From assembly GCA_018816905.1 (NCBI GenBank), contig JAHIVB010000006.1:62001-126000 (forward strand): a DNA stretch of 64,000 bases. The letters are read 5' to 3'. A program made the translations under genes and the position numbers. Numbering within the stretch: position 1 is the stretch's first letter; the number at the start of each line of letters is the position of its first letter. Positions 41,316-62,195 of the stretch are shown in pieces. The notes beneath the pieces are model-generated. The model searched no databases and had not been told where the DNA came from. It worked only from the letters and a program-made list of their open reading frames with translations. This DNA comes from Bacillota bacterium. Lineage in GTDB: Bacteria > Bacillota_I > Bacilli_A > Izemoplasmatales > Hujiaoplasmataceae.

Positions 41316-43388
41316 TCACTCTCCTTCTATGACAATTGCGTGAAAGGCACAATTAAAATTACGGTCAATTATACGAGCTTTCAAGTTGACTCTACAAACA
41401 AATTTATCAAATGAATTATTAACTAGTCTAATAGAACTAATTAATTGCTCTTTCTTCTCAAATTCAAATGATAATGACTTTTCAAATATAGTAGAATCTT
41501 TAAATATTTCTATCACAGGTTGGCCTAAATAACGCCCTTCCGAATCTTCCAAAACGCAAGTCAAAGAAAGGATTTCAAATGGAGGAACCATTTGATCTTG
41601 TTCTATCCAGTCTGCCATTGATCTATATCCTCTTGTAGTTGCAATTTGAGGAACAAAATTTATAGAAGTTCCCTTCTTCTTTGATTCAACTTTGAAAGTA
41701 ATATTTATGAATTCACCTTCGAATCTACCATTATCCATCAACAGAGTGACTAAAGTTGATTTTGATTTCGCCACTCGAATTTCCTCTCTGCCGGTTTTTC
41801 CGTTAATTGTGCTTTCTTTTCCAAACAGATTATCAGGAAGCAATGCTTTTGCAAATTTCTTTCCTAAAATACGATTTACTGTTGCCTCTTCATCAGCTTT
41901 AGGGGTTTCAATGAATGCTTCTTGAAGACATTTTTTTACCACTCTTTTAATATGAGAAATTGCATCACCTTTTTTATTCTTCAATTTATCTATTGTACTG
42001 TCATACCAATCAAAGTGATCTGACTTTTCTCCTCTTCGAACATATTCCTCGAGAGTTAGGTTTATCCCAAAGTAAGCATTCTCCGAATTTAAGACAAATA
42101 GTCCGATGATAAAATTATCTTTCCCAGAGTTGACTCGAGTCCCGGTCCAATCATCATTAGCTCTATATGATGCTATCATCCCCGGTCTCCTTGTGTACAT
42201 AATAATCGGCGAATATCCTTCGTCCTCTGATGCAGGTTGGTCTATTCCAAAGTAAATAAGCGGCGAAGGGTACTTTAAATCAAGACCCGCTTCGGAATTG
42301 CTTATTATTCTAAATGCAAACCAGCCTAAAACAGGATGAATGAAATTCGAACCACTCTTCCTCACTTCTCTAGTTTTAATATTATTCAATGAAATTTCAG
42401 TTTCATTACTGCCATTACCTCTCTTGTATGAAGCGATTGAAGAATACAGGTTAGAAAGTTCATGAAAAATCGGAATTGCATTAGGGTTGACTACTTTTCC
42501 ATTTATAGACACATTAAGTTTTGCGCCAGAAAAATAATCAGGATTAATTCTAGGAAAATACCATTTCATTACCGAAATTTCAAGAAAGGACGGAATTGAC
42601 TGATACCAATATGCCCCTTGACTAGAAGCATCCTTTTTGTTATTATCTAAAAGTTCTTTTTCATTTATAAATGGGACTATTATTAATGTTCCTGTTTGTT
42701 CATCAGTGAAAGGAGCCAAATTAAAAATTTTGAGAAAAGAATGAATTTTCTCTTCATTACAAATAACCGAAAATTCTTCTTCATCAGTTCCATCAAATTG
42801 ACCAAAAAATGCAACTCCTATGTTATTCGAAAATTGCTTTAGTATGCCATCTTTCTTAGTTTCGTCTTCTACAAACGAAGCTACTAGTCTCTCCTCGAAG
42901 CCACCACTTATCTTAATTCTAGAGTAATAGACTGTGAACCCAGCGCCAAGTCGGTAATAAACTGTTTTGCCAATACCCCAAGAACCACCTGCTCCCTCAT
43001 TCCTTTGCGGATGCATAATTTGGAAAACAAGTTTTCCTAGATGCTCATCTTTGTCGTCACTACTGATAAGTCCGGTTTTCACTCCAGTCAACCCTACGGT
43101 GTTAGTATCCCTTACAGAAAGAAATGAATATACTGCCTCGGAGAAATGTGTTGCTAGTTCAAACTGAAGATCATCAAAAGCCGAGGCAAATAATTCTTTT
43201 TTGAATTCTCCCGTATTAAAAGAAACATCTACACTTTCAGCATCAAGGAGAGCAGCATCCATACTATTTTGAAGTGATTCACGTACAAATAAATCTAGCT
43301 TTGGCTCCGAAGGATTCTGCATCATTCTAATTAGTGCACTTCCTGCGGTTTGCATAAAACCATTTTTAATATAGTTAATCTTGAACAT
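41316..43388 (-). CDS. GHKL ATPase (MutL/MORC-like, paraMORC class)
   Basis: From the ATG at 43388 the protein has 690 aa. The GHKL site shows RESLQNSMDA (N box, 36-45), VRDTNTVGLTG (G1) and GGSWGIGKT (G2), the form seen in paraMORC and MzaA-like proteins. The middle resembles an S5-type transducer, and the C-terminus is beta-rich. I chose 43388, with GGAGGA 8 bases upstream, over an ATG at 43433 deeper in the Z1 gene; overlap with the Z1 end is then 14 bp. ATP-driven clamp closure on DNA, coupled to the Z1 helicase and nuclease, is inferred from the family. Confidence 0.85.
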   Translation of the reverse strand: MFKINYIKNGFMQTAGSALIRMMQNPSEPKLDLFVRESLQNSMDAALLDAESVDVSFNTGEFKKELFASAFDDLQFELATHFSEAVYSFLSVRDTNTVGLTGVKTGLISSDDKDEHLGKLVFQIMHPQRNEGAGGSWGIGKTVYYRLGAGFTVYYSRIKISGGFEERLVASFVEDETKKDGILKQFSNNIGVAFFGQFDGTDEEEFSVICNEEKIHSFLKIFNLAPFTDEQTGTLIIVPFINEKELLDNNKKDASSQGAYWYQSIPSFLEISVMKWYFPRINPDYFSGAKLNVSINGKVVNPNAIPIFHELSNLYSSIASYKRGNGSNETEISLNNIKTREVRKSGSNFIHPVLGWFAFRIISNSEAGLDLKYPSPLIYFGIDQPASEDEGYSPIIMYTRRPGMIASYRANDDWTGTRVNSGKDNFIIGLFVLNSENAYFGINLTLEEYVRRGEKSDHFDWYDSTIDKLKNKKGDAISHIKRVVKKCLQEAFIETPKADEEATVNRILGKKFAKALLPDNLFGKESTINGKTGREEIRVAKSKSTLVTLLMDNGRFEGEFINITFKVESKKKGTSINFVPQIATTRGYRSMADWIEQDQMVPPFEILSLTCVLEDSEGRYLGQPVIEIFKDSTIFEKSLSFEFEKKEQLISSIRLVNNSFDKFVCRVNLKARIIDRNFNCAFHAIVIEGE

Positions 43389-46134
43389 CGTCAGTTTCCT
43401 CCAATGCTTTAATCCTATCCTTAATTCTAACAACTAGTGATTCCGCATATGATTCGCCTGTTCTTCCTCCGGGAATATTAATACATATGCCTATCAAATC
43501 ATCAGCACTGTTTAGTGGAATCCTAAATTCCGATCCTTTAACAGGAACTGAGTCCTTGTCAATAAAATAGATTAACAAAGCCGGGGTTGATGATAACCCT
43601 GATTTGTTTCTAATTCTAAATAATTCTGCAGTTTTAGGGTTTTTAAGTATTCGTCTTTCTTCATTAGATATTGAAGAATCATCAATATCTAATGCAAGGT
43701 CGTTTAGTGAGCGCAAAGCACCAATTCGGATAATTCCATCATTTTGAGTCTGTTTCTTTCTCGAACGATTAACAGGTCTAATTGATATGTTATCAACAAT
43801 TCTCTCTTTTGGTGCATTTACTCCGGGGATAATAATGTTCCATTTTTCTATTATTCCTTTTTTTGATACCTTTTTATACCAATCTTCCAGTCTGTCTATT
43901 TCAACGAATTCAGATGACATATTAGGAAGAAATAGAGATTTAATATATTCAAAGACATGTTCATAATCTACTTCGCGCCAAATATAAGAAACGTTTTTAG
44001 TTTCATGGACGAATTTAATATTCAAATATTTAATAAATTCTTGTGTTTTTTCTAAATTATTGGCTATTTTCTTTGATTCTTCAAAGAAAGCTGTGGTTTG
44101 TGAGACAGCACCAGAGAAATCAAATTCAGTAAACTCTGCATCTTGCATTCGTTTTTTTGCTGTTATTCTCAATAATGCGTTTTTAGGAGAATTCTTTACT
44201 TTTATCCCGCATGATCTTGGAGTTACGTTACTTGAATCCATTAAACTCATTTCATGGCGTAATGAGAAATCTAAAGAAGTTAAGAATTCAAATTGCTTTT
44301 TGATTCTATCGGTTATCCATATTCTTGGAAGAAGTTCATAGTGTCTTCTATATCCGAACCATCGGCCCATTTGCATCAATGTATCTGCCTGGCTCGTATG
44401 TCTTGGAAAATAAGTGCTGACAAGTCCTTCTATAGTGAGCCCTCTCGAAAGAGTGGCACCTCCGACAACAATGAAAGCTGTACAAAAATCCAAATTTAGG
44501 GACTCATCAGGATAGGCAAGTCGAATGTGAACTTTATCATTTCTTCCTGGATTGTATTTGCAATTATCAATACAAAGATGAATTCCCTTTGAATAATTCA
44601 ACTCACCATCATCCTTCATTTCAATTCTTTGAATACTAAAGTCTTTCAAAGAAATGATTTCAGATTGAATATCTTCAAATTTGGGGTATTTATGAATATT
44701 CACTCCAAAATAACCCGGAATATGACTATAGAGATCCTCTAGAGTAAATTGCTTCGTTTGGGTTTCCCAAGTCTTTTCGCACTGAATTAGGAATGTATTA
44801 GTGTCTGTGTTACTAAGAAATGAACGGATTGCTTTCTCCACATTGTCATGATGTGAGGTGTTTTGACTTGTGTGCACGAGCATGCTGACCGGCTTATTGA
44901 TATTCCATAAACGAAAACATGAAACACAGCAAAAAAACCATCGAATAGCATCTTTTAGAGATTCAGGGATTGCATCAAGGTTCATTTTTTGAACATCATA
45001 TAAAATCTTATCGTCATATAGAGTTATTTTGTTGAGAATCGGCATAGAATCCGAGGGATGATCTCCGAAAATCTGTTGCGGTCCAAAATATTCCGCAGGC
45101 GGTTCAAGTACAGCAACGAAGTCTGCCGGAAATAATACATCTTCACGATCTGGTGACTCGTTAAGTATATTTGCATATGGCGTTGCTGTATAACCAATAT
45201 AGTTTACACTTTCATACGGAGAAAAGTATTCGGAATTCGGCTTCTTCCTATTATAGACAAGCTCAACTATTAATTTATTAATTTTCGTTCTTTCGTCTTT
45301 CGAAATATCTGCTGTGTTAATGCCTGCCTGATCAGCCTCATCATCAAATATGAGTACTTTAAGTTGTCTTTTTTTTGCCTGATCTGATTTCAGCATCCTT
45401 AGAAGCAAAGTTAACCGACTTGAATTTTTCAAACACACGGTAAAATAACGAATACTACTCGTATTGCTTAAATATAAATCGGTGAGCGTTTTTCTTGATT
45501 CGTTTTCAATGCAAATCCAAGAATCTGAAGAAAATTCAGAGATTAAATCCTTTTTTAATCTTCCTTCAGTTTGCTTTCTCAAATTTTCAATAGTTCCTGA
45601 TAAGATTACAAACATATTGAACCCATTATCTGCGGCCATTGTCATTAGAGCGGCCATATTTGCAGTTTTACCTGACTGTACATTACCTATTACCATACCG
45701 AGCACAGGATGGCCTTGCTTGGTATCAATCCTAAGCCTTTTAAGAATTCGCAATGAAGTAATTTCAATGTTTTGAATCGTGTCGTCCGAAAAATCTTTGC
45801 TCTGAAGAAGTCTTTTGTATGTGCTCCACGATGAAGAAGGAGCTTCTTTTATTGTGAACTCACTGTCGAGCTCACCGTTAGTGATTAGAGTTGGTCCTAA
45901 ATCCTGAAATTGTATTGATTGTTCTTCGTTTTCCTGCTGCAAAGCACAAAGATGATTCCATTCCTCAACTGTAATATATGCTGCACCTGAATGATAGCGC
46001 GTTTCTAAATATAGTTTCAACTTGTCCTCAGAATCAAGTGTTGCAAAATACACTTCACTCCAATCATGTCCAAGATCGCGAAATGACTTAATTAGCTTTC
46101 TATATACATCAAATCTAAGATCTGAATAGTTCAT
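43375..46134 (-). CDS. Z1-domain superfamily II helicase
   Basis: The 919-aa motor protein shows GNVQSGKT (Walker A, 150-157), DDEAD at 264-268 (motif II), YTATPYANI (motif III), GGATLSRGLTIEG (motif V) and LMQMGRWFGYR (motif VI). This is the Z1 domain of restriction-linked endonuclease/helicases. The N-terminal 130 and C-terminal 250 residues are unassigned. The start overlaps the second cytosine methylase by 4 bp (ATGA). Z1 helicases pair with GHKL ATPases and PD-(D/E)XK nucleases in Mza and related systems, as here. Confidence 0.92.
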   Translation of the reverse strand: MNYSDLRFDVYRKLIKSFRDLGHDWSEVYFATLDSEDKLKLYLETRYHSGAAYITVEEWNHLCALQQENEEQSIQFQDLGPTLITNGELDSEFTIKEAPSSSWSTYKRLLQSKDFSDDTIQNIEITSLRILKRLRIDTKQGHPVLGMVIGNVQSGKTANMAALMTMAADNGFNMFVILSGTIENLRKQTEGRLKKDLISEFSSDSWICIENESRKTLTDLYLSNTSSIRYFTVCLKNSSRLTLLLRMLKSDQAKKRQLKVLIFDDEADQAGINTADISKDERTKINKLIVELVYNRKKPNSEYFSPYESVNYIGYTATPYANILNESPDREDVLFPADFVAVLEPPAEYFGPQQIFGDHPSDSMPILNKITLYDDKILYDVQKMNLDAIPESLKDAIRWFFCCVSCFRLWNINKPVSMLVHTSQNTSHHDNVEKAIRSFLSNTDTNTFLIQCEKTWETQTKQFTLEDLYSHIPGYFGVNIHKYPKFEDIQSEIISLKDFSIQRIEMKDDGELNYSKGIHLCIDNCKYNPGRNDKVHIRLAYPDESLNLDFCTAFIVVGGATLSRGLTIEGLVSTYFPRHTSQADTLMQMGRWFGYRRHYELLPRIWITDRIKKQFEFLTSLDFSLRHEMSLMDSSNVTPRSCGIKVKNSPKNALLRITAKKRMQDAEFTEFDFSGAVSQTTAFFEESKKIANNLEKTQEFIKYLNIKFVHETKNVSYIWREVDYEHVFEYIKSLFLPNMSSEFVEIDRLEDWYKKVSKKGIIEKWNIIIPGVNAPKERIVDNISIRPVNRSRKKQTQNDGIIRIGALRSLNDLALDIDDSSISNEERRILKNPKTAELFRIRNKSGLSSTPALLIYFIDKDSVPVKGSEFRIPLNSADDLIGICINIPGGRTGESYAESLVVRIKDRIKALEETDDVQD

Positions 46135-47276
46135 AGTTTTCCTTCACCTTCTTCCATTTCGAGAAAAATAAAGATTTCGCGAAATATCGCCATCATAACA
46201 TCCACTACTATAGAATTACCAGCTTGAAAATATGCCTGAGTTCTTGATACGACAATTTTAAATTCATCGGTAAACCCCATTAGACGCAACGCTTCTCTCT
46301 CCGTCAACATCCGTCTTTTACCTTGTATGGTAATATAATTATCTATTCCTGCTCTATGACAATTTCCCATCGTTGCCAATATTGGCCGAGCTATTTTTAA
46401 ATCTGTAATAGGTTTTTGATAAAAACCGCCGCTTCCTCCTTGCATTACAAAGTGGTCGACAGTGGCTGACAAAAAATATTGACTTTGCACTACCCCCGGA
46501 ATGTTATCTATAATAATTTTGCCATTTTGCTTATCAAACCTAACTGCCCCTTCAAAATTGTTTTCTATAGTAAAATCTGTCATTGAAAACATGCAATCAA
46601 TTTTATCCTGAGGAAAATTAAAGTGCCCATTAATTGGCCTTTTGAAGCCTACGGCGAAATATCTTCTTCTAGTTTGAGGAATTCCAAAATCTTTAGCGTC
46701 CAGCACACCTGAGAACACGTCATATTCTAAATTATCAAATATTCTATTAATAATCGAAATAGTCTTTTTCTTGTCATGAAAAGTGACTCCTCTAACATTT
46801 TCATAAACAAACACATTAGGTTGTATTTCCTGAATTAGCCTTGCAAAATCATAAAACAAAGTTCCTCTAGCGTCCTCAAAACCTTGCTGATATCCGACAC
46901 TTGAAAAACTTTGACAAGGACTTCCTCCAATAAAAACATCAACTTCTCCCTTAAAGTCATTCCCATCAAGCAAACAAATATCTTCATAATACCTTGAAGG
47001 ATCAAGTTGATAATTGGAAAGATAACTTTGTTTCACGAAATTAGTTCTTCTTGTTTTAGAAAGATAAAGATTATCAACATATTCTTTTTTTTCATCAAAA
47101 GAAGCAAGCGAGCGAATATAATTAAGCTCTCTCTCGTGGTCGTATTCAATTTCCCTGTCTCCGTTATCACATGCAAAAACAATTTCATGAGGTTGATTCA
47201 TTCTAAGAAGCGCAAACTCAGGAGATCCGATTCCACTAAATACAGTAGCAATTCTAACTTTTCTCTTAATCATCAA
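46131..47276 (-). CDS. C5-cytosine DNA methyltransferase (second copy)
   Basis: The 381-aa protein shows the C5-methylase motifs: FSGIGSPE (I), GSPCQSFS with catalytic C121 (IV), YENVRG (VI), QTRRRYFAVG (VIII) and GNSIVV (X). The target-recognition region (about 225-300) differs from that of the upstream methylase, although both share the unusual FACDNG and the following insert. The start overlaps the first methylase by 11 bp. Two different methylases suggest either an asymmetric target with each strand methylated separately, or two targets. Confidence 0.92.
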   Translation of the reverse strand: MMIKRKVRIATVFSGIGSPEFALLRMNQPHEIVFACDNGDREIEYDHERELNYIRSLASFDEKKEYVDNLYLSKTRRTNFVKQSYLSNYQLDPSRYYEDICLLDGNDFKGEVDVFIGGSPCQSFSSVGYQQGFEDARGTLFYDFARLIQEIQPNVFVYENVRGVTFHDKKKTISIINRIFDNLEYDVFSGVLDAKDFGIPQTRRRYFAVGFKRPINGHFNFPQDKIDCMFSMTDFTIENNFEGAVRFDKQNGKIIIDNIPGVVQSQYFLSATVDHFVMQGGSGGFYQKPITDLKIARPILATMGNCHRAGIDNYITIQGKRRMLTEREALRLMGFTDEFKIVVSRTQAYFQAGNSIVVDVMMAIFREIFIFLEMEEGEGKL

Positions 47277-48369
47277 AATTCACAACTTTCATTATTTCAA
47301 TGATGATCTTTTCTAAAACATTGACAACAATAGAATTTCCTGCTTGTTTATACGCTTGGATATTGGAGTTAGAATAAATAAAAGAATTATCAAACCCCAT
47401 CAATCTATAGCATTCTCGATGAGTAAGTTGACGAATCACTCCTGATTTTCCATTCCATTCACCAACATAAGCGCGATTCAATACATCAATTCTATCTTTC
47501 ACTTTGCATAATGGTTCAAATATGAAATCGCCGTTCCAGTTAAATTGTTGATTTGCTTTTTGAGTTTGAAAAATTAACGGATCCACATGAGCACGCCGAA
47601 TATACTTTGGGTTTGTAACAAACTCAAACCCCTTGCGGCCCAAATAGTAATGAGCAGGAATTTTCCCTTTATCAAGGAATTCTTTAGAAAGGGGTCTGTC
47701 TTTGACCTTTTCCGGTTCTTTCATCACAACGTTATGATCCAAGAAACCAATAACATAAACCCTTTTTCTATTTTGAGGAATACCGTAATCTTTTGCATTT
47801 AGTAAAAATGATTGGGTTTTATATCCCGATGTTTCAAATAAATCAGAGATGATTTTCCAAGTATTGTTTTTATCATGAGACAGCATCCCAGCAACGTTTT
47901 CATAAATAAATACTTTGGGCTTAATTTGTTTAATCAATCTCACAAAATCATAAAAGAGGGATCCTCTAATATCTAATAAGCCTCCTTTTTTCCCTATTAC
48001 AGAAAAACTTTGACAGGGACTTCCACCGACAAAAAGGTCAACAATTCCTTCATATTTTGTTCCATCAATGTATCTAATATCTTCATGCCACTGTTCCTCA
48101 GTTATTTTGTAGTTATCAAAATACGTCTTCTTGACGTGATTTGTTTTCTTGCTTAAATTATATAACTTTGATACATACGCTTTTTTCTCATCATATGTAA
48201 AGTTTTTGATGAATTTATGAATTTGTTGTGTATCATTTTCTAGGGTTATTTCTCCGTTATCGCATGCAAATACAATTTCATAGTCGATCCTCTGCTTGGA
48301 AAGCGCATGTTCAATTGCCCCTATTCCACTAAATACTGTTGCTAGTCTTAAAGGCCTATTTATCAACAT
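47266..48369 (-). CDS. C5-cytosine DNA methyltransferase (first copy)
   Basis: The 367-aa protein shows FSGIGAIE (I), GSPCQSFS with catalytic C119 (IV), YENVAG at 156-161 (VI), QNRKRVYVIG (VIII) and GNSIVVNV (X). It is similar to the next gene across the catalytic core, so the two arose by duplication, but the target-recognition part (about 225-300) is different. It overlaps the 292-aa gene by 14 bp. It protects self DNA from the associated nuclease. The recognition sequence is unknown. Confidence 0.92.
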   Translation of the reverse strand: MLINRPLRLATVFSGIGAIEHALSKQRIDYEIVFACDNGEITLENDTQQIHKFIKNFTYDEKKAYVSKLYNLSKKTNHVKKTYFDNYKITEEQWHEDIRYIDGTKYEGIVDLFVGGSPCQSFSVIGKKGGLLDIRGSLFYDFVRLIKQIKPKVFIYENVAGMLSHDKNNTWKIISDLFETSGYKTQSFLLNAKDYGIPQNRKRVYVIGFLDHNVVMKEPEKVKDRPLSKEFLDKGKIPAHYYLGRKGFEFVTNPKYIRRAHVDPLIFQTQKANQQFNWNGDFIFEPLCKVKDRIDVLNRAYVGEWNGKSGVIRQLTHRECYRLMGFDNSFIYSNSNIQAYKQAGNSIVVNVLEKIIIEIMKVVNFDD

Positions 48370-49234
48370 TTTCCACTCCTTCTAAAGTAATTATATTATG
48401 TAAAAAATCAATCAAAAATATTGTCTTGTTTTTATCTAAATTTTGTTTCATTTTTAGAACGTATTGCATATAAATTTCGTGCATCGTTGTATTCCCTTTT
48501 AGCATTATTTGCAATTGTCCTTGGGAATTAATGCGAGTATAAACGTTAATTTTCAATCCGTAAGCATCCATAACATAATTGTGTCCATTAAAATCCAAAA
48601 TATTAGATAGAGATAACACCTGTGATATTAGGTCGCATACAAGAGGTTGATCCAGTAACCCAAAGTATAAGCTGTTGTCTGAAGCCGTTGGATGAAGATT
48701 AGAATTTGTGGCTTTCCTTCCAAGGATTTTTTTTTGAATATTAAAATATACGATATGCTTTTTGAGAGCAAGTTTTTCAATTGAATTAGCATTCTTATTA
48801 TATTTATATTTTAAGAATCTTAGAAAATTATTATATGCTGCAGATATAATATGATGCCAGTATAGGTTTTGTGCAACAAGATTATTGTTGGTTTCGAAAT
48901 ATCTTATTAAGTATTCCAATTGAGGTATATCTGCAAGATCAATAATATTATATCTAAGTGATGTACCCAAAGACAATTCAAGAAGACTTTTCATGACTTC
49001 AAGACTATGAATGTATTTTTCAGCAGTTATAGGTTTAAGCCCTCTTTTCAATATACAATAGTCAAAAAATTCTACTTTATTTAATGAATTATATGATAAC
49101 GAGGATGGGGTTGAGAGGTGAATAATGTCTTTTTCCCCATCCTCAAGAAGAGCTTTTTCTTCAGGATAATCAACATTTCCATTTGGATATTTCCCTTTGA
49201 GATAGTACAAGTAGTTGTGAATTGAATTGTGCAT
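48356..49234 (-). CDS. Hypothetical with integrase core-binding-like region, first gene of the defence operon
   Basis: The protein has 292 aa. Residues about 48-150 (VEFFDYCILKRG, then AEKYIHSLEVMKSLL and AAYNNFLRFLKYKY) have the helix pattern of the SAM-like core-binding domain of tyrosine recombinases. No catalytic R-H-R-Y domain follows; the C-terminal 110 residues are of unknown fold. AGGAGG lies 9 bases before the ATG. It may be a DNA-binding regulator or specificity factor for the operon, since it leads eight overlapping genes. The fold assignment is weak. Confidence 0.6.
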   Translation of the reverse strand: MHNSIHNYLYYLKGKYPNGNVDYPEEKALLEDGEKDIIHLSTPSSLSYNSLNKVEFFDYCILKRGLKPITAEKYIHSLEVMKSLLELSLGTSLRYNIIDLADIPQLEYLIRYFETNNNLVAQNLYWHHIISAAYNNFLRFLKYKYNKNANSIEKLALKKHIVYFNIQKKILGRKATNSNLHPTASDNSLYFGLLDQPLVCDLISQVLSLSNILDFNGHNYVMDAYGLKINVYTRINSQGQLQIMLKGNTTMHEIYMQYVLKMKQNLDKNKTIFLIDFLHNIITLEGVENVDK

Positions 49235-49607
49235 TGAGCTGCACCTCCTCTTATGCTAATGATGTTCATAATATATACTCTAAATTTGAAAGAAAGGATG
49301 GCGAATTGAATAAAAATCAAGCCTAAAATTATTTCAAAAATCAACACGCTACTAAAAATATTATATCATTCATATGAACATTGGTGTTATGTTTTTAGAA
49401 AAAAACATATTAAAAACCAATATTAGGCATAAATTTGAAACGTTTTTCAAAAAAGTTTTTTTTGAAGTGGATGTTACCTGTGAGAAAATGCGAATAAATA
49501 TCACGTATATACTATTAATTAAAAGTAAAAATGTAAAATTAAGCAAAAAATATTACATATTGCATATGACATGCTATAATGAACTTATCAATATTTAGGA
49601 GGAAAAA
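49235..49607. other. Divergent intergenic region: defence operon / heliorhodopsin
   Basis: The left part should contain the promoter of the defence operon. The right part holds the heliorhodopsin promoter: TATAAT at 49575-49580 with the extended TG two bases upstream, and AGGAGG at 49598-49603. A 74-codon frame across this region overlaps the promoter and is not credible. Confidence 0.55.
49575..49603 (+). promoter_or_regulatory. Extended -10 promoter and RBS of heliorhodopsin
   Basis: TGCTATAAT ends at 49580 (extended -10) with no good -35. AGGAGG follows at 49598-49603, five bases before the ATG at 49608. Confidence 0.6.
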
Positions 49608-50402
49608 ATGGAACTAACTCAACTTAAAAAACTTAGAAGATTTAACATGATTATGGGCGGACTTCATCTCATCCAAGGAATCTTAATGTTATTCCTTGCA
49701 GCGACCGTCATTCAAAAAATAGGTGAATTTCAACCAACGATTACACAAAACTACTTATTCTACAATATGACTACTCAATCACTTGAACTAGCAAGTAAAG
49801 AATTATTCTCATTGCCGTTTGGTGTATTAGTAGCTGTATTCTTACTACTATCTGCTGCTGCACATGCACTCATCTCTTTACCAAACAAATTAAACGACAA
49901 GTACAACAAAGACTTAAAAGAAGGAATCAATCAATTCAGATGGTTTGAATATGCATTAAGCTCTTCTGTCATGATTGTATTGATTGCGACTCTATTTGGA
50001 ATCTATGACATTGCTTCCTTAATCTTAATCTTTGTCGTCAATGCTTCCATGAACTTATTTGGACTTGTGATGGAACAACTCAACTCCAAAAGAGCCAAAG
50101 AAGGAAAAGTCAACTGGGGCCCATTCGTATGGGGATCCTTTGCAGGTCTCGCTCCTTGGGTTGCAATCTTACTTTACATGTTCGGCAATGGTAACTTTAG
50201 TGAAGTACCTTGGTTCGTATGGGCGATCGTTGGAACCTACTTCGTAGCGTTCAATACTTTCCCTGTTAATATGGTTCTTCAATACAAAAAGGTTGGAAAA
50301 TGGAAAGACTATCTTTACGGTGAAAGAACTTATATCGTATTAAGTCTTGTGGCTAAATCCATTCTTGCTTGGCTAGTTCTTTTTGGAGCTATGCAACCAT
50401 AA
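49608..50402 (+). CDS. Heliorhodopsin
   Basis: The protein is 264 aa with seven hydrophobic segments. TM7 holds the retinal Schiff-base lysine K250 in LVAKSILAW. TM3 shows WFEYALSSS with E114, matching the counterion Glu of heliorhodopsins. H20 in TM1 and H86 in TM2 correspond to the conserved His pair. Family-wide segments such as NM-x-LQY and GERTYIVLSL are also present. Heliorhodopsins have inverted topology (N-terminus inside) and are not classical proton pumps; a light-sensing or enzyme-modulating role is proposed for the family. No retinal-forming oxygenase gene is in the window. A terminator separates it from a tocopherol-cyclase-like gene. Confidence 0.93.
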   Translation: MELTQLKKLRRFNMIMGGLHLIQGILMLFLAATVIQKIGEFQPTITQNYLFYNMTTQSLELASKELFSLPFGVLVAVFLLLSAAAHALISLPNKLNDKYNKDLKEGINQFRWFEYALSSSVMIVLIATLFGIYDIASLILIFVVNASMNLFGLVMEQLNSKRAKEGKVNWGPFVWGSFAGLAPWVAILLYMFGNGNFSEVPWFVWAIVGTYFVAFNTFPVNMVLQYKKVGKWKDYLYGERTYIVLSLVAKSILAWLVLFGAMQP

Positions 50403-50410
50403 TCAATTAA

Positions 50411-50437
50411 AAAATGCTAGATTTTTCTAGCATTTTT
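50411..50437 (+). terminator. Terminator between heliorhodopsin and tocopherol-cyclase-like gene
   Basis: An 11-bp stem AAAATGCTAGA / TCTAGCATTTT with a TTTT loop is followed by a T run. The next gene starts 15 bp later, so some readthrough is plausible. Confidence 0.85.
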
Positions 50438-50451
50438 GTTAGGAGCATCCA

Positions 50452-51405
50452 ATGAATGTCAAAAATCCGGTATTATTCCAAGGTAGAAAGAAAAAGGATC
50501 ATTATTTTGAAGGCTGGTATTTCAAAGCAGTAAGCTCAGATGAATTATATAGTATTGCACTAATACCAGGTGTCAGTATTAACAAAATCGACCCTCATTC
50601 TTTCATCCAATTATTTATCTCTGAAAAGACTGAAAAAGACGTCAGTCTACAAACCTATTATTTTCGGTTCCCTCTAGAGGACTTCAATTGTGAAGACACT
50701 CCTTTTTCGGTTCGAATCGGAAATAATTTATTTTCAAAAGAAGTTGTAGATATTGATCTCTTCAATGAAAACGTTCGTTTAAAAGGATGTTTGAAGATTT
50801 CAGGCATGGAACCCATCAAGACAAGTCTTTATAGCCCTAACATCATGGGCCCATTTGGATACCTGAATTTTATGGAGTGCTATCATGGTGTGGTATCCAT
50901 GAATCATCAAATAAACGGATCTTTGCAATATAACAATCAAGAAATCTCCTTCAAAAACGCGAAGGGATACATTGAAAAAGACTGGGGAAAATCATTCCCC
51001 AGCAAATACATTTGGCTTCAAACGAATCACTTTAAAGAATCAACAACTTCCTTAATGTTATCTTATGCGACCATTCCTTTGGGAGCTCTTCATTTCAAAG
51101 GGTTGATTGCGAATATGATCATCCATGAAAAAGAATATCGCTTTGCGACCTATAACTTTTCCAAAATCAAGATTACAGAATTAAAACAAGATGAAGTGAG
51201 ACTTCAAATTAAAAAAGGGAGATACAAACTCTTTCTTCATGCAAAAACAGAAAAACAAATAGAATTGAAGTCTCCTTCCAATGGTTTGATGATCAATCAA
51301 ATCAAGGAAGGGCTTTCCGGATGGATTCATATCAAGTTATATGAGTCTCAGAAGTTAATCTATGAAGACACTGGATGCCATTCAGGAATTGAAATCATGA
51401 TGTAA
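50452..51405 (+). CDS. Tocopherol-cyclase-like (lipocalin-like) protein
   Basis: The protein has 317 aa. The N-terminus (FQGRKKKDHYFEGWYFKAV) and the central GYIEKDWGKSFPSKYIWLQT, near residues 170-190, are the signatures of the tocopherol_cycl family. The chain is almost wholly beta, consistent with a two-lobed lipocalin-like barrel. Bacterial members outside tocopherol makers have unknown substrates, probably hydrophobic small molecules. There is no signal peptide. It follows heliorhodopsin in the same direction, with AGGAG in the gap just before it. A functional link with the retinal protein is suggestive only. Confidence 0.85.
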   Translation: MNVKNPVLFQGRKKKDHYFEGWYFKAVSSDELYSIALIPGVSINKIDPHSFIQLFISEKTEKDVSLQTYYFRFPLEDFNCEDTPFSVRIGNNLFSKEVVDIDLFNENVRLKGCLKISGMEPIKTSLYSPNIMGPFGYLNFMECYHGVVSMNHQINGSLQYNNQEISFKNAKGYIEKDWGKSFPSKYIWLQTNHFKESTTSLMLSYATIPLGALHFKGLIANMIIHEKEYRFATYNFSKIKITELKQDEVRLQIKKGRYKLFLHAKTEKQIELKSPSNGLMINQIKEGLSGWIHIKLYESQKLIYEDTGCHSGIEIMM

Positions 51406-61860: not shown

Positions 61861-62195
61861 TGTTTATCCCCCCTAAACAGTTCTTCCATTTCTTTTACAA
61901 TTTGTAACCATTCTTCTTTTAATATTGAATATACTTCTTTTCCTTCTTCACTTAACTTGTAATACTTCCTTGGCCTCGACTCGCTCGTATCCCAAACGCT
62001 CTCAAGAAGATTTTGCGTATCGAGTCTTCTTAGAAGCGGGTATAATGTTCCGGCTTCAATGTTGACATTTAAGTCATTTAGATCCTGGAGGAGCGAGTAA
62101 CCGTACTGCATTTTATCTAGTTGAGATAAAACTGCCAATATCTGTGTCCCTCTTCGAAGCTCGCTTTTCAGGTTTTGAACCAATGCTTCATTCAT
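61857..62195 (-). CDS. PadR-family transcriptional repressor
   Basis: The 112-aa winged-helix regulator starts at the ATG at 62195, with AGAGGTG upstream. It shows LRRGTQILAVLSQLD, YGYSLLQDL and EAGTLYPLLRRL, the typical PadR N-terminal order, then RPRKYYKLSEEG (wing). The length fits the small PadR-s2 group. It is followed at once by its HAAS partner gene. Autoregulation at the palindrome 62222-62234 is likely. Confidence 0.92.
   Translation of the reverse strand: MNEALVQNLKSELRRGTQILAVLSQLDKMQYGYSLLQDLNDLNVNIEAGTLYPLLRRLDTQNLLESVWDTSESRPRKYYKLSEEGKEVYSILKEEWLQIVKEMEELFRGDKQ

Follow-up and report, generated by a model that had tools for sequence, protein, structure and literature searches.

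What would a heliorhodopsin use as chromophore in a bacterium with no visible retinal synthesis gene, and why should a tocopherol-cyclase-like gene follow it directly? Both questions are raised by a 64,000-nucleotide stretch (hereafter the window; positions 62,001 to 126,000 of contig JAHIVB010000006.1, assembly GCA_018816905.1) from a Bacillota bacterium of the Izemoplasmatales, a host described in an earlier note on this DNA as low in G+C, which the analysis supports. The same note saw a possible link between the two genes through retinal or another lipid.

The two genes and their spacer

The first gene (HeR; 49608–50402, + strand, ATG start, 264 aa) is, by its sequence, a genuine heliorhodopsin. 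Its match to PF18761 is full-length (E 8e-99; residues 9–262 over positions 1–242 of the 242 in the Pfam model), it scores 303 bits against NCBIfam NF038020 “heliorhodopsin HeR” (cut-off 100), and it matches the solved heliorhodopsin 6IS6 with an E of 6e-57. The residues on which the earlier identification was based, K250, E114 and a His pair (H20 and H86), are all present, align with those of the solved protein, and do not vary across 38 aligned HeRs, most of which belong to the same order and class. The distribution of Lys and Arg agrees under the positive-inside rule with an N-terminus located inside; the N-terminus and the putative cytoplasmic loops are positively charged, as expected of N-inside heliorhodopsins. 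The protein therefore shares with the solved HeRs (6IS6; 48C12, 6SU3) and the two family models a full-length match, the Schiff-base Lys, the Glu counter-ion and the His pair, although it is only about 43–50% similar to the solved proteins. A much closer copy exists: the HeR of the same-genus genome G001, probably the same record as JAQUZN010000003.1 (Candidatus Izemoplasmatales bacterium STD2_261), is 87% identical to it. Measured against a copy from the same genus, dN stands at 0.10 and synonymous sites are nearly saturated, which indicates strong purifying selection on the opsin.

Upstream of HeR, a ribosome binding site (AGGAGG, 49597–49602, + strand) is preceded by a promoter-like site (ATTACA-17 nt-TATAAT with a TG before the -10, 49552–49580, + strand), which lies 28 nt from the gene. 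It is the best match in the region, scoring 10/12, and such sites are no more numerous there than in shuffled sequence; similar -10 boxes can be seen by eye upstream of HeR in relatives.

The second gene (Toc; 50452–51405, + strand, 317 aa) encodes a PF14249 protein with a predicted double-lipocalin-like fold. It matches PF14249 with an E of 4e-19 and 69.3 bits (curated cut-off 26.6), through residues 133–315 only, which cover no more than a C-terminal portion of the Pfam profile. A structure predicted with AlphaFold2 from the window Toc and six relatives has a pLDDT of 85.7; with it, Foldseek gave AttH (2ICH, E 7e-10) as the best match, and matches also to the pericyclases Fsa2, Phm7 and CghA and to kievitone hydratase. 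The predicted fold thus resembles that of enzymes working on prenyl or polyketide chains, and the earlier description of the neighbour as a lipocalin-like tocopherol_cycl protein holds. Compared with PF14249 (plant VTE1) and with the AttH/CrtC-like double lipocalins (2ICH, 7E5T, 7A0T and 6KAW), Toc would have the same overall fold (TM 0.5–0.6) with about 12% identity to the solved relatives. Unlike the setting of plant VTE1, no plant-type tocopherol pathway genes are seen beside the window Toc, and no signal peptide is apparent in it. A sequence search of the PDB with a Toc profile returned alpha-crystallins, and these matches were rejected as chance.

A spacer of 49 bp separates the genes, in line with the 50 bp described before. 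It is filled by a terminator-like hairpin with a 12-bp stem (50410–50437, + strand; -15.6 kcal/mol, z -4.1, equalled by none of 200 shuffles), directly after which comes the ribosome binding site of Toc (AGGAG, 50441–50445, + strand). A stem-loop with a U-rich 3' side is found in all the HeR-to-Toc spacers compared, L331 among them, except that of locus L198, and it lies 14–32 nt from the Toc start codon where this was measured; on average, only about one in 24 shuffled spacers does as well. The stems themselves vary (GCTAGG/CCTAGC, GCCAGG/CCTGGC, GACTAAG/CTTAGTC and GGGCCGG/CCGGCCC, for example): the 22 measured hairpins have 18 different left arms, a count in which L299 figures with a mis-picked stem, its spacer also carrying GCTAGG/CCTAGC.

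HeR copies without a Toc (L151, L172 and L178) likewise end in a terminator-like hairpin. This observation suggests that the hairpin is probably HeR's own terminator, with Toc lying behind it on its own ribosome binding site. Since the position of the hairpin is kept while the sequence of its stem varies, Toc is probably reached by partial read-through and expressed below the level of HeR; the terminator is probably leaky. As regards co-transcription, a short spacer filled by such a hairpin fits either read-through or a promoter inside HeR, which is a possible alternative route to Toc expression. Another explanation would be that a strong terminator means separate transcription of Toc, which could be the case.

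Distribution and history of the pair

A first survey covered 120 relatives of the window genome. HeR was matched in 63 of them and Toc in 57; both genes were present in 40 genomes, the window's included, and were neighbours only in the latter (they lie about 3 kb apart in G039 and about 6 kb apart in G113). On this basis, the adjacency appeared to be unique to the window genome, which the earlier note had named as grounds for abandoning the link. This reading was overturned by a second survey, in which GTDB species genomes were scanned with a HeR alignment, and by the relatives of Peloplasma. Toc lies directly 3' of HeR at six of the loci found in the scan (L152, L153, L154, L158, L182 and L198), of which L198 comes from a Clostridia MAG and L158 from Peloplasma aerotolerans, a mollicute and anaerobe that has been cultured (PMC11122141). 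HeR was matched in 41 of 150 relatives of Peloplasma, and the pair was present in 23. Adding the window and L198 brings the number of distinct HeR-adjacent Toc genes to 25, and hence to 24 genomes other than the window's, including the cultured mollicute, one Clostridia and one case (G219) in which the order is reversed to Toc-HeR with a gap of 91 bp. Elsewhere the gap is 25–71 bp in the loci measured, where the genes of relatives were called by a simple longest-ORF script, small genes and exact starts being approximate.

The arrangement is far from universal. Many genomes carry the two genes far apart, and they are not adjacent in 25 of the 31 named HeR genomes that have a Toc. Viral contigs yielded two HeR loci, both without a Toc, and no relatives of Toc; plasmids yielded two distant HeRs. 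HeR nevertheless has a same-strand neighbour that is conserved beyond close relatives, and the frequency of the adjacency, 25 distinct pairs at several separate places in the tree, indicates that the link is real rather than accidental. A functional partnership of HeR and Toc is well supported.

In a tree of 94 Toc proteins, that of the window falls in a supported clade of 29, comprising 19 HeR-adjacent, four crtI-adjacent and six that are neither. HeR-adjacent Tocs are also found in a set of small genomes that group separately (G194, G206, G214 and G221), in G219 and in the Clostridia locus L198, the nearest relative of which is not adjacent. The adjacency label needs eight changes over this tree, compared with a mean of 22 when shuffled, and strongly supported branches force at least five changes, whether gains or losses. 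Most pairs nevertheless belong to one large Toc clade and one HeR group. A quicker HeR tree places the window with G001 and G007 among the bearers of HeR-Toc. These nearest HeR relatives have HeR, and Toc had no match in their assemblies, so the window appears to keep an arrangement that they have lost. The Toc of the same-genus genome G002 falls in another clade, which makes lateral transfer of the pair possible.

HeR itself is also being lost, as broken genes with frameshifts or stops are found in G171 (L328), G215 (L345), G030, G113 (L100) and G264. Several genomes of about 1 Mb or less (G048, G058 and G065; L080 and L083) carry HeR in two or three copies, of which two lie near each other on a single contig.

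That HeR can have a conserved neighbour was already known (PMC9529153, PMC9769723, PMC11109279, PMC8612252). HeR has been reported to regulate glutamine synthetase, photolyase and an ABC transporter (PMC9529153, PMC9769723, PMC11109279), and in Trichococcus flocculiformis it occurs with a class II photolyase (PMC9769723). One study described ten HeR neighbour groups (PMC11109279) and another defined HeR operons by a spacing of <10 bp (PMC8612252). As in these two studies, a conserved same-strand neighbour of HeR is read here as a partner; however, Toc is not among the ten groups, and spacers of 25–71 bp fail the <10 bp rule. A word search of three of the papers on HeR neighbours did not find “tocopherol”, Toc being a neighbour unnamed in the HeR papers examined. 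A literature search, with subscription papers and supplements outside its scope, found no paper that joins heliorhodopsin with tocopherol cyclase, Acholeplasma or Izemoplasma, and nothing of use came from one on DUF92 or phytyl-phosphate kinase. The arrangement is of a known kind, with Toc as an apparently undescribed partner, and the surveys suggest a conserved partnership in bacteria without recognised retinal synthesis.

Gene surroundings and the source of retinal

The surroundings of the pair differ from one group of genomes to another. In G178, G180, G184 and G205, it is divergent to genes for a crtI-type desaturase, a phytoene/dehydrosqualene synthase (crtB), a VTE5-like membrane protein, DUF92 and a photolyase; in G194, G206, G214 and G221, it is divergent to crtI-crtB-photolyase. 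In G172, G175 and G176, the pair still has the VTE5-like gene, DUF92 and the photolyase in its neighbourhood but not crtI or crtB next to it, and phytoene synthase has no match in the genomes. In Peloplasma and its nearest relatives, only the photolyase of these cluster genes is beside the pair, and in the window, none of the five adjoins it. Conversely, Toc is divergent to crtI-crtB-VTE5-like-DUF92 without a HeR beside it in G136, G257, G262 and G279. The DUF92 match is strong (PF01940, E 2e-62); for the VTE5-like protein, a single copy matched CTP_transf_1, with an E of no better than 0.03. We infer that the parts of the cluster may have been lost stepwise, leaving the window with the HeR-Toc core.

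Like the case of T. flocculiformis, many HeR-Toc relatives have a photolyase beside HeR, apparently of class II (the one classed with NCBIfam, that of L152, falls in the class II phr2 superfamily, below its curated cut-off). They differ from that case in that the photolyase gene is divergent to HeR and that Toc is what stays constant beside it. Searches of the window assembly gave no photolyase, and a linkage of the window HeR to one was rejected.

Other surroundings were also observed. Beside the window HeR, on the minus strand (41316–49234), is a probable defence island with a 705-aa ORF, a pair of cytosine-5 DNA methyltransferase genes and the gene for a Z1-domain protein (PF10593; PADLOC MzaC, E 8e-54, and type II helicase). 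It may be an MZA-like or a restriction-modification system, and relatives have a different neighbour upstream of HeR. Another family of the order (f3) has a cation:proton antiporter-like gene after HeR (L061, L052, L070, L226, L229 and others), with RlmD-like rRNA methyltransferase genes on either side. At other loci of the window's own family (L046, L059, L069, L074 and L077), HeR is divergent to a photolyase-like/DUF1295/DUF2177/DegV-DAK-like gene cluster, the order in L077 being DUF1295-DUF2177-HeR-photolyase on one strand. At L298, L299, L302, L306, L327, L334–L339 and L342, crtI-crtB is regularly followed by the VTE5-like gene and DUF92 (VTE6-like), an order that suggests salvage of a prenol (farnesol, geranylgeraniol or phytol) for carotenoid synthesis in these mollicutes.

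An important question is where the retinal would come from. The known retinal-forming cleavage enzymes need oxygen, of which anaerobes would have little. Genome-wide statements here rest on profile searches, and the window assembly (1.67 Mb in 19 contigs) is an estimated 86% complete. In it, neither phytoene synthase (PF00494), nor an RPE65/CCO-type oxygenase (PF03055), nor BCD (PF15461) was found, the last with a model that never gave a positive control. The absence of a visible retinal synthesis gene, as noted earlier for the stretch itself, thus extends to the whole assembly, and the search for a carotenoid-cleaving oxygenase had the same outcome. More widely, phytoene synthase had no match in any own-family genome among the relatives, PF03055 matched none of 48 genomes (its controls did match), and not one of 170 genomes, comprising relatives and named HeR genomes, exceeded the cut-off of PF15461 (whose controls never matched); four sub-threshold PF15461 matches (E 2e-4 to 4e-4) were not accepted. 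The retinal would therefore have to be taken up from outside or formed by a route not yet recognised; otherwise, HeR may use another aldehyde. The Schiff-base Lys and the Glu remain invariant even though no known retinal-making gene was found. Where the cluster has a crtB, its closest relative among solved proteins is CrtM, a dehydrosqualene synthase, and a C30 product would not lead to retinal.

What Toc may do for HeR

The reading preferred here, which is tentative and falls somewhat short of an even chance, is that HeR and Toc belong together as a conserved unit of two light-response genes, with Toc binding or processing an isoprenoid polyene tied to the chromophore of HeR. HeR would be a photoreceptor of inverted topology, with light acting on the retinal Schiff base (K250, counter-ion E114), and Toc a soluble double-lipocalin protein, for which retinal, an apocarotenoid or a carotenoid end group are candidate ligands. 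Transcription would start upstream of HeR and pass the hairpin in part, yielding more HeR than Toc. In relatives, the unit would lie within the larger cluster crtI-crtB-VTE5-like-DUF92-photolyase / HeR-Toc, of which the window has the core only. Toc occurs with carotenoid genes in the absence of HeR and with HeR in the absence of carotenoid genes, and we infer that a polyene isoprenoid ligand is the simplest common factor of its two linkages. The link through retinal or another lipid is strengthened by the divergent position of Toc to crtI/crtB in relatives and by its predicted fold, and chromophore or polyene handling by Toc is the likeliest of the mechanisms considered. In hosts without a known retinal pathway, Toc would most likely help to capture or prepare the chromophore.

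In favour of this reading, the pair is kept where crt genes were not found (G172, G175, G176, Peloplasma and the window). Against it are the nearness of crtB to C30 enzymes, the many genomes in which the genes are apart, the chance that a strong terminator separates their transcription, and the lack of Toc in the assemblies of G001 and G007, which indicates that HeR does not strictly need it. A bolder version, which has only a small chance of being right, is that Toc-like proteins perform or assist an oxygen-independent step that supplies the HeR chromophore in anaerobes without oxygen-dependent cleavage enzymes, either by capturing and delivering scavenged retinal or through ring or end-group chemistry on an apocarotenoid (possibly C30-derived) used in place of retinal.

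Another possibility, unlikely but to be taken seriously, is a photoprotection regulon, in which HeR senses light or acts as a regulator, while a carotenoid or other antioxidant lipid is modified or carried by Toc without contact with the HeR chromophore, the genes being neighbours because they are all light-responsive. Photolyase and crt genes in the same neighbourhood speak for it, as do the four genomes in which Toc accompanies crtI without HeR and the reports of HeR beside photolyase or carotenoid genes (PMC9769723; PMC8612252). However, the pair is kept where phytoene synthase was not found, so no endogenous carotenoid substrate is evident there.

It is improbable, despite the reported precedents with neighbouring genes (PMC9529153, PMC9769723, PMC11109279), that Toc is a binding partner whose activity HeR controls in response to light. 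With no apparent signal peptide, Toc would face the cytoplasmic side of HeR; however, the hairpin in the spacer speaks for the two proteins being made in unequal amounts. Little credence is given to inherited synteny or chance, which would accord with the concentration of most pairs in one Toc clade and one HeR group and with the single adjacency among the 40 two-gene genomes of the first survey. Against this are the separate occurrences in the Toc tree, the reversed order, the Clostridia case, the persistence of the pair while its surroundings change and the signs of purifying selection on both genes. Finally, the roles of VTE5 and VTE6 in plants raise the idea that the VTE5-like protein, DUF92 (VTE6-like) and Toc (VTE1-like), which share a neighbourhood in several genomes, salvage prenols and make a chromanol antioxidant; this is very improbable, given that the clusters show no aromatic prenyltransferase or methyltransferase, that the VTE5-like match is so weak and that the window has neither a VTE5-like nor a DUF92 neighbour.

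If Toc does handle a polyene for HeR, a lipid-handling neighbour kept with HeR in the absence of carotenoid, prenol-kinase-like and photolyase genes is a concrete candidate for chromophore handling, and it bears on how anaerobic heterotrophic bearers of HeR obtain retinal and on what HeR does. The presence of the pair in the cultured P. aerotolerans makes the idea testable. The “tocopherol cyclase” proteins of bacteria might also, in mollicutes, have a light-related role. In f3 there is a further Toc subfamily, set deeply apart from the first (L108, L110, L111, L115, L119 and L120), with no HeR at these loci; its neighbourhood is conserved and has genes for a PAS-GGDEF protein, an aldo/keto reductase, a regulator of the MarR type and two ABC transporters.
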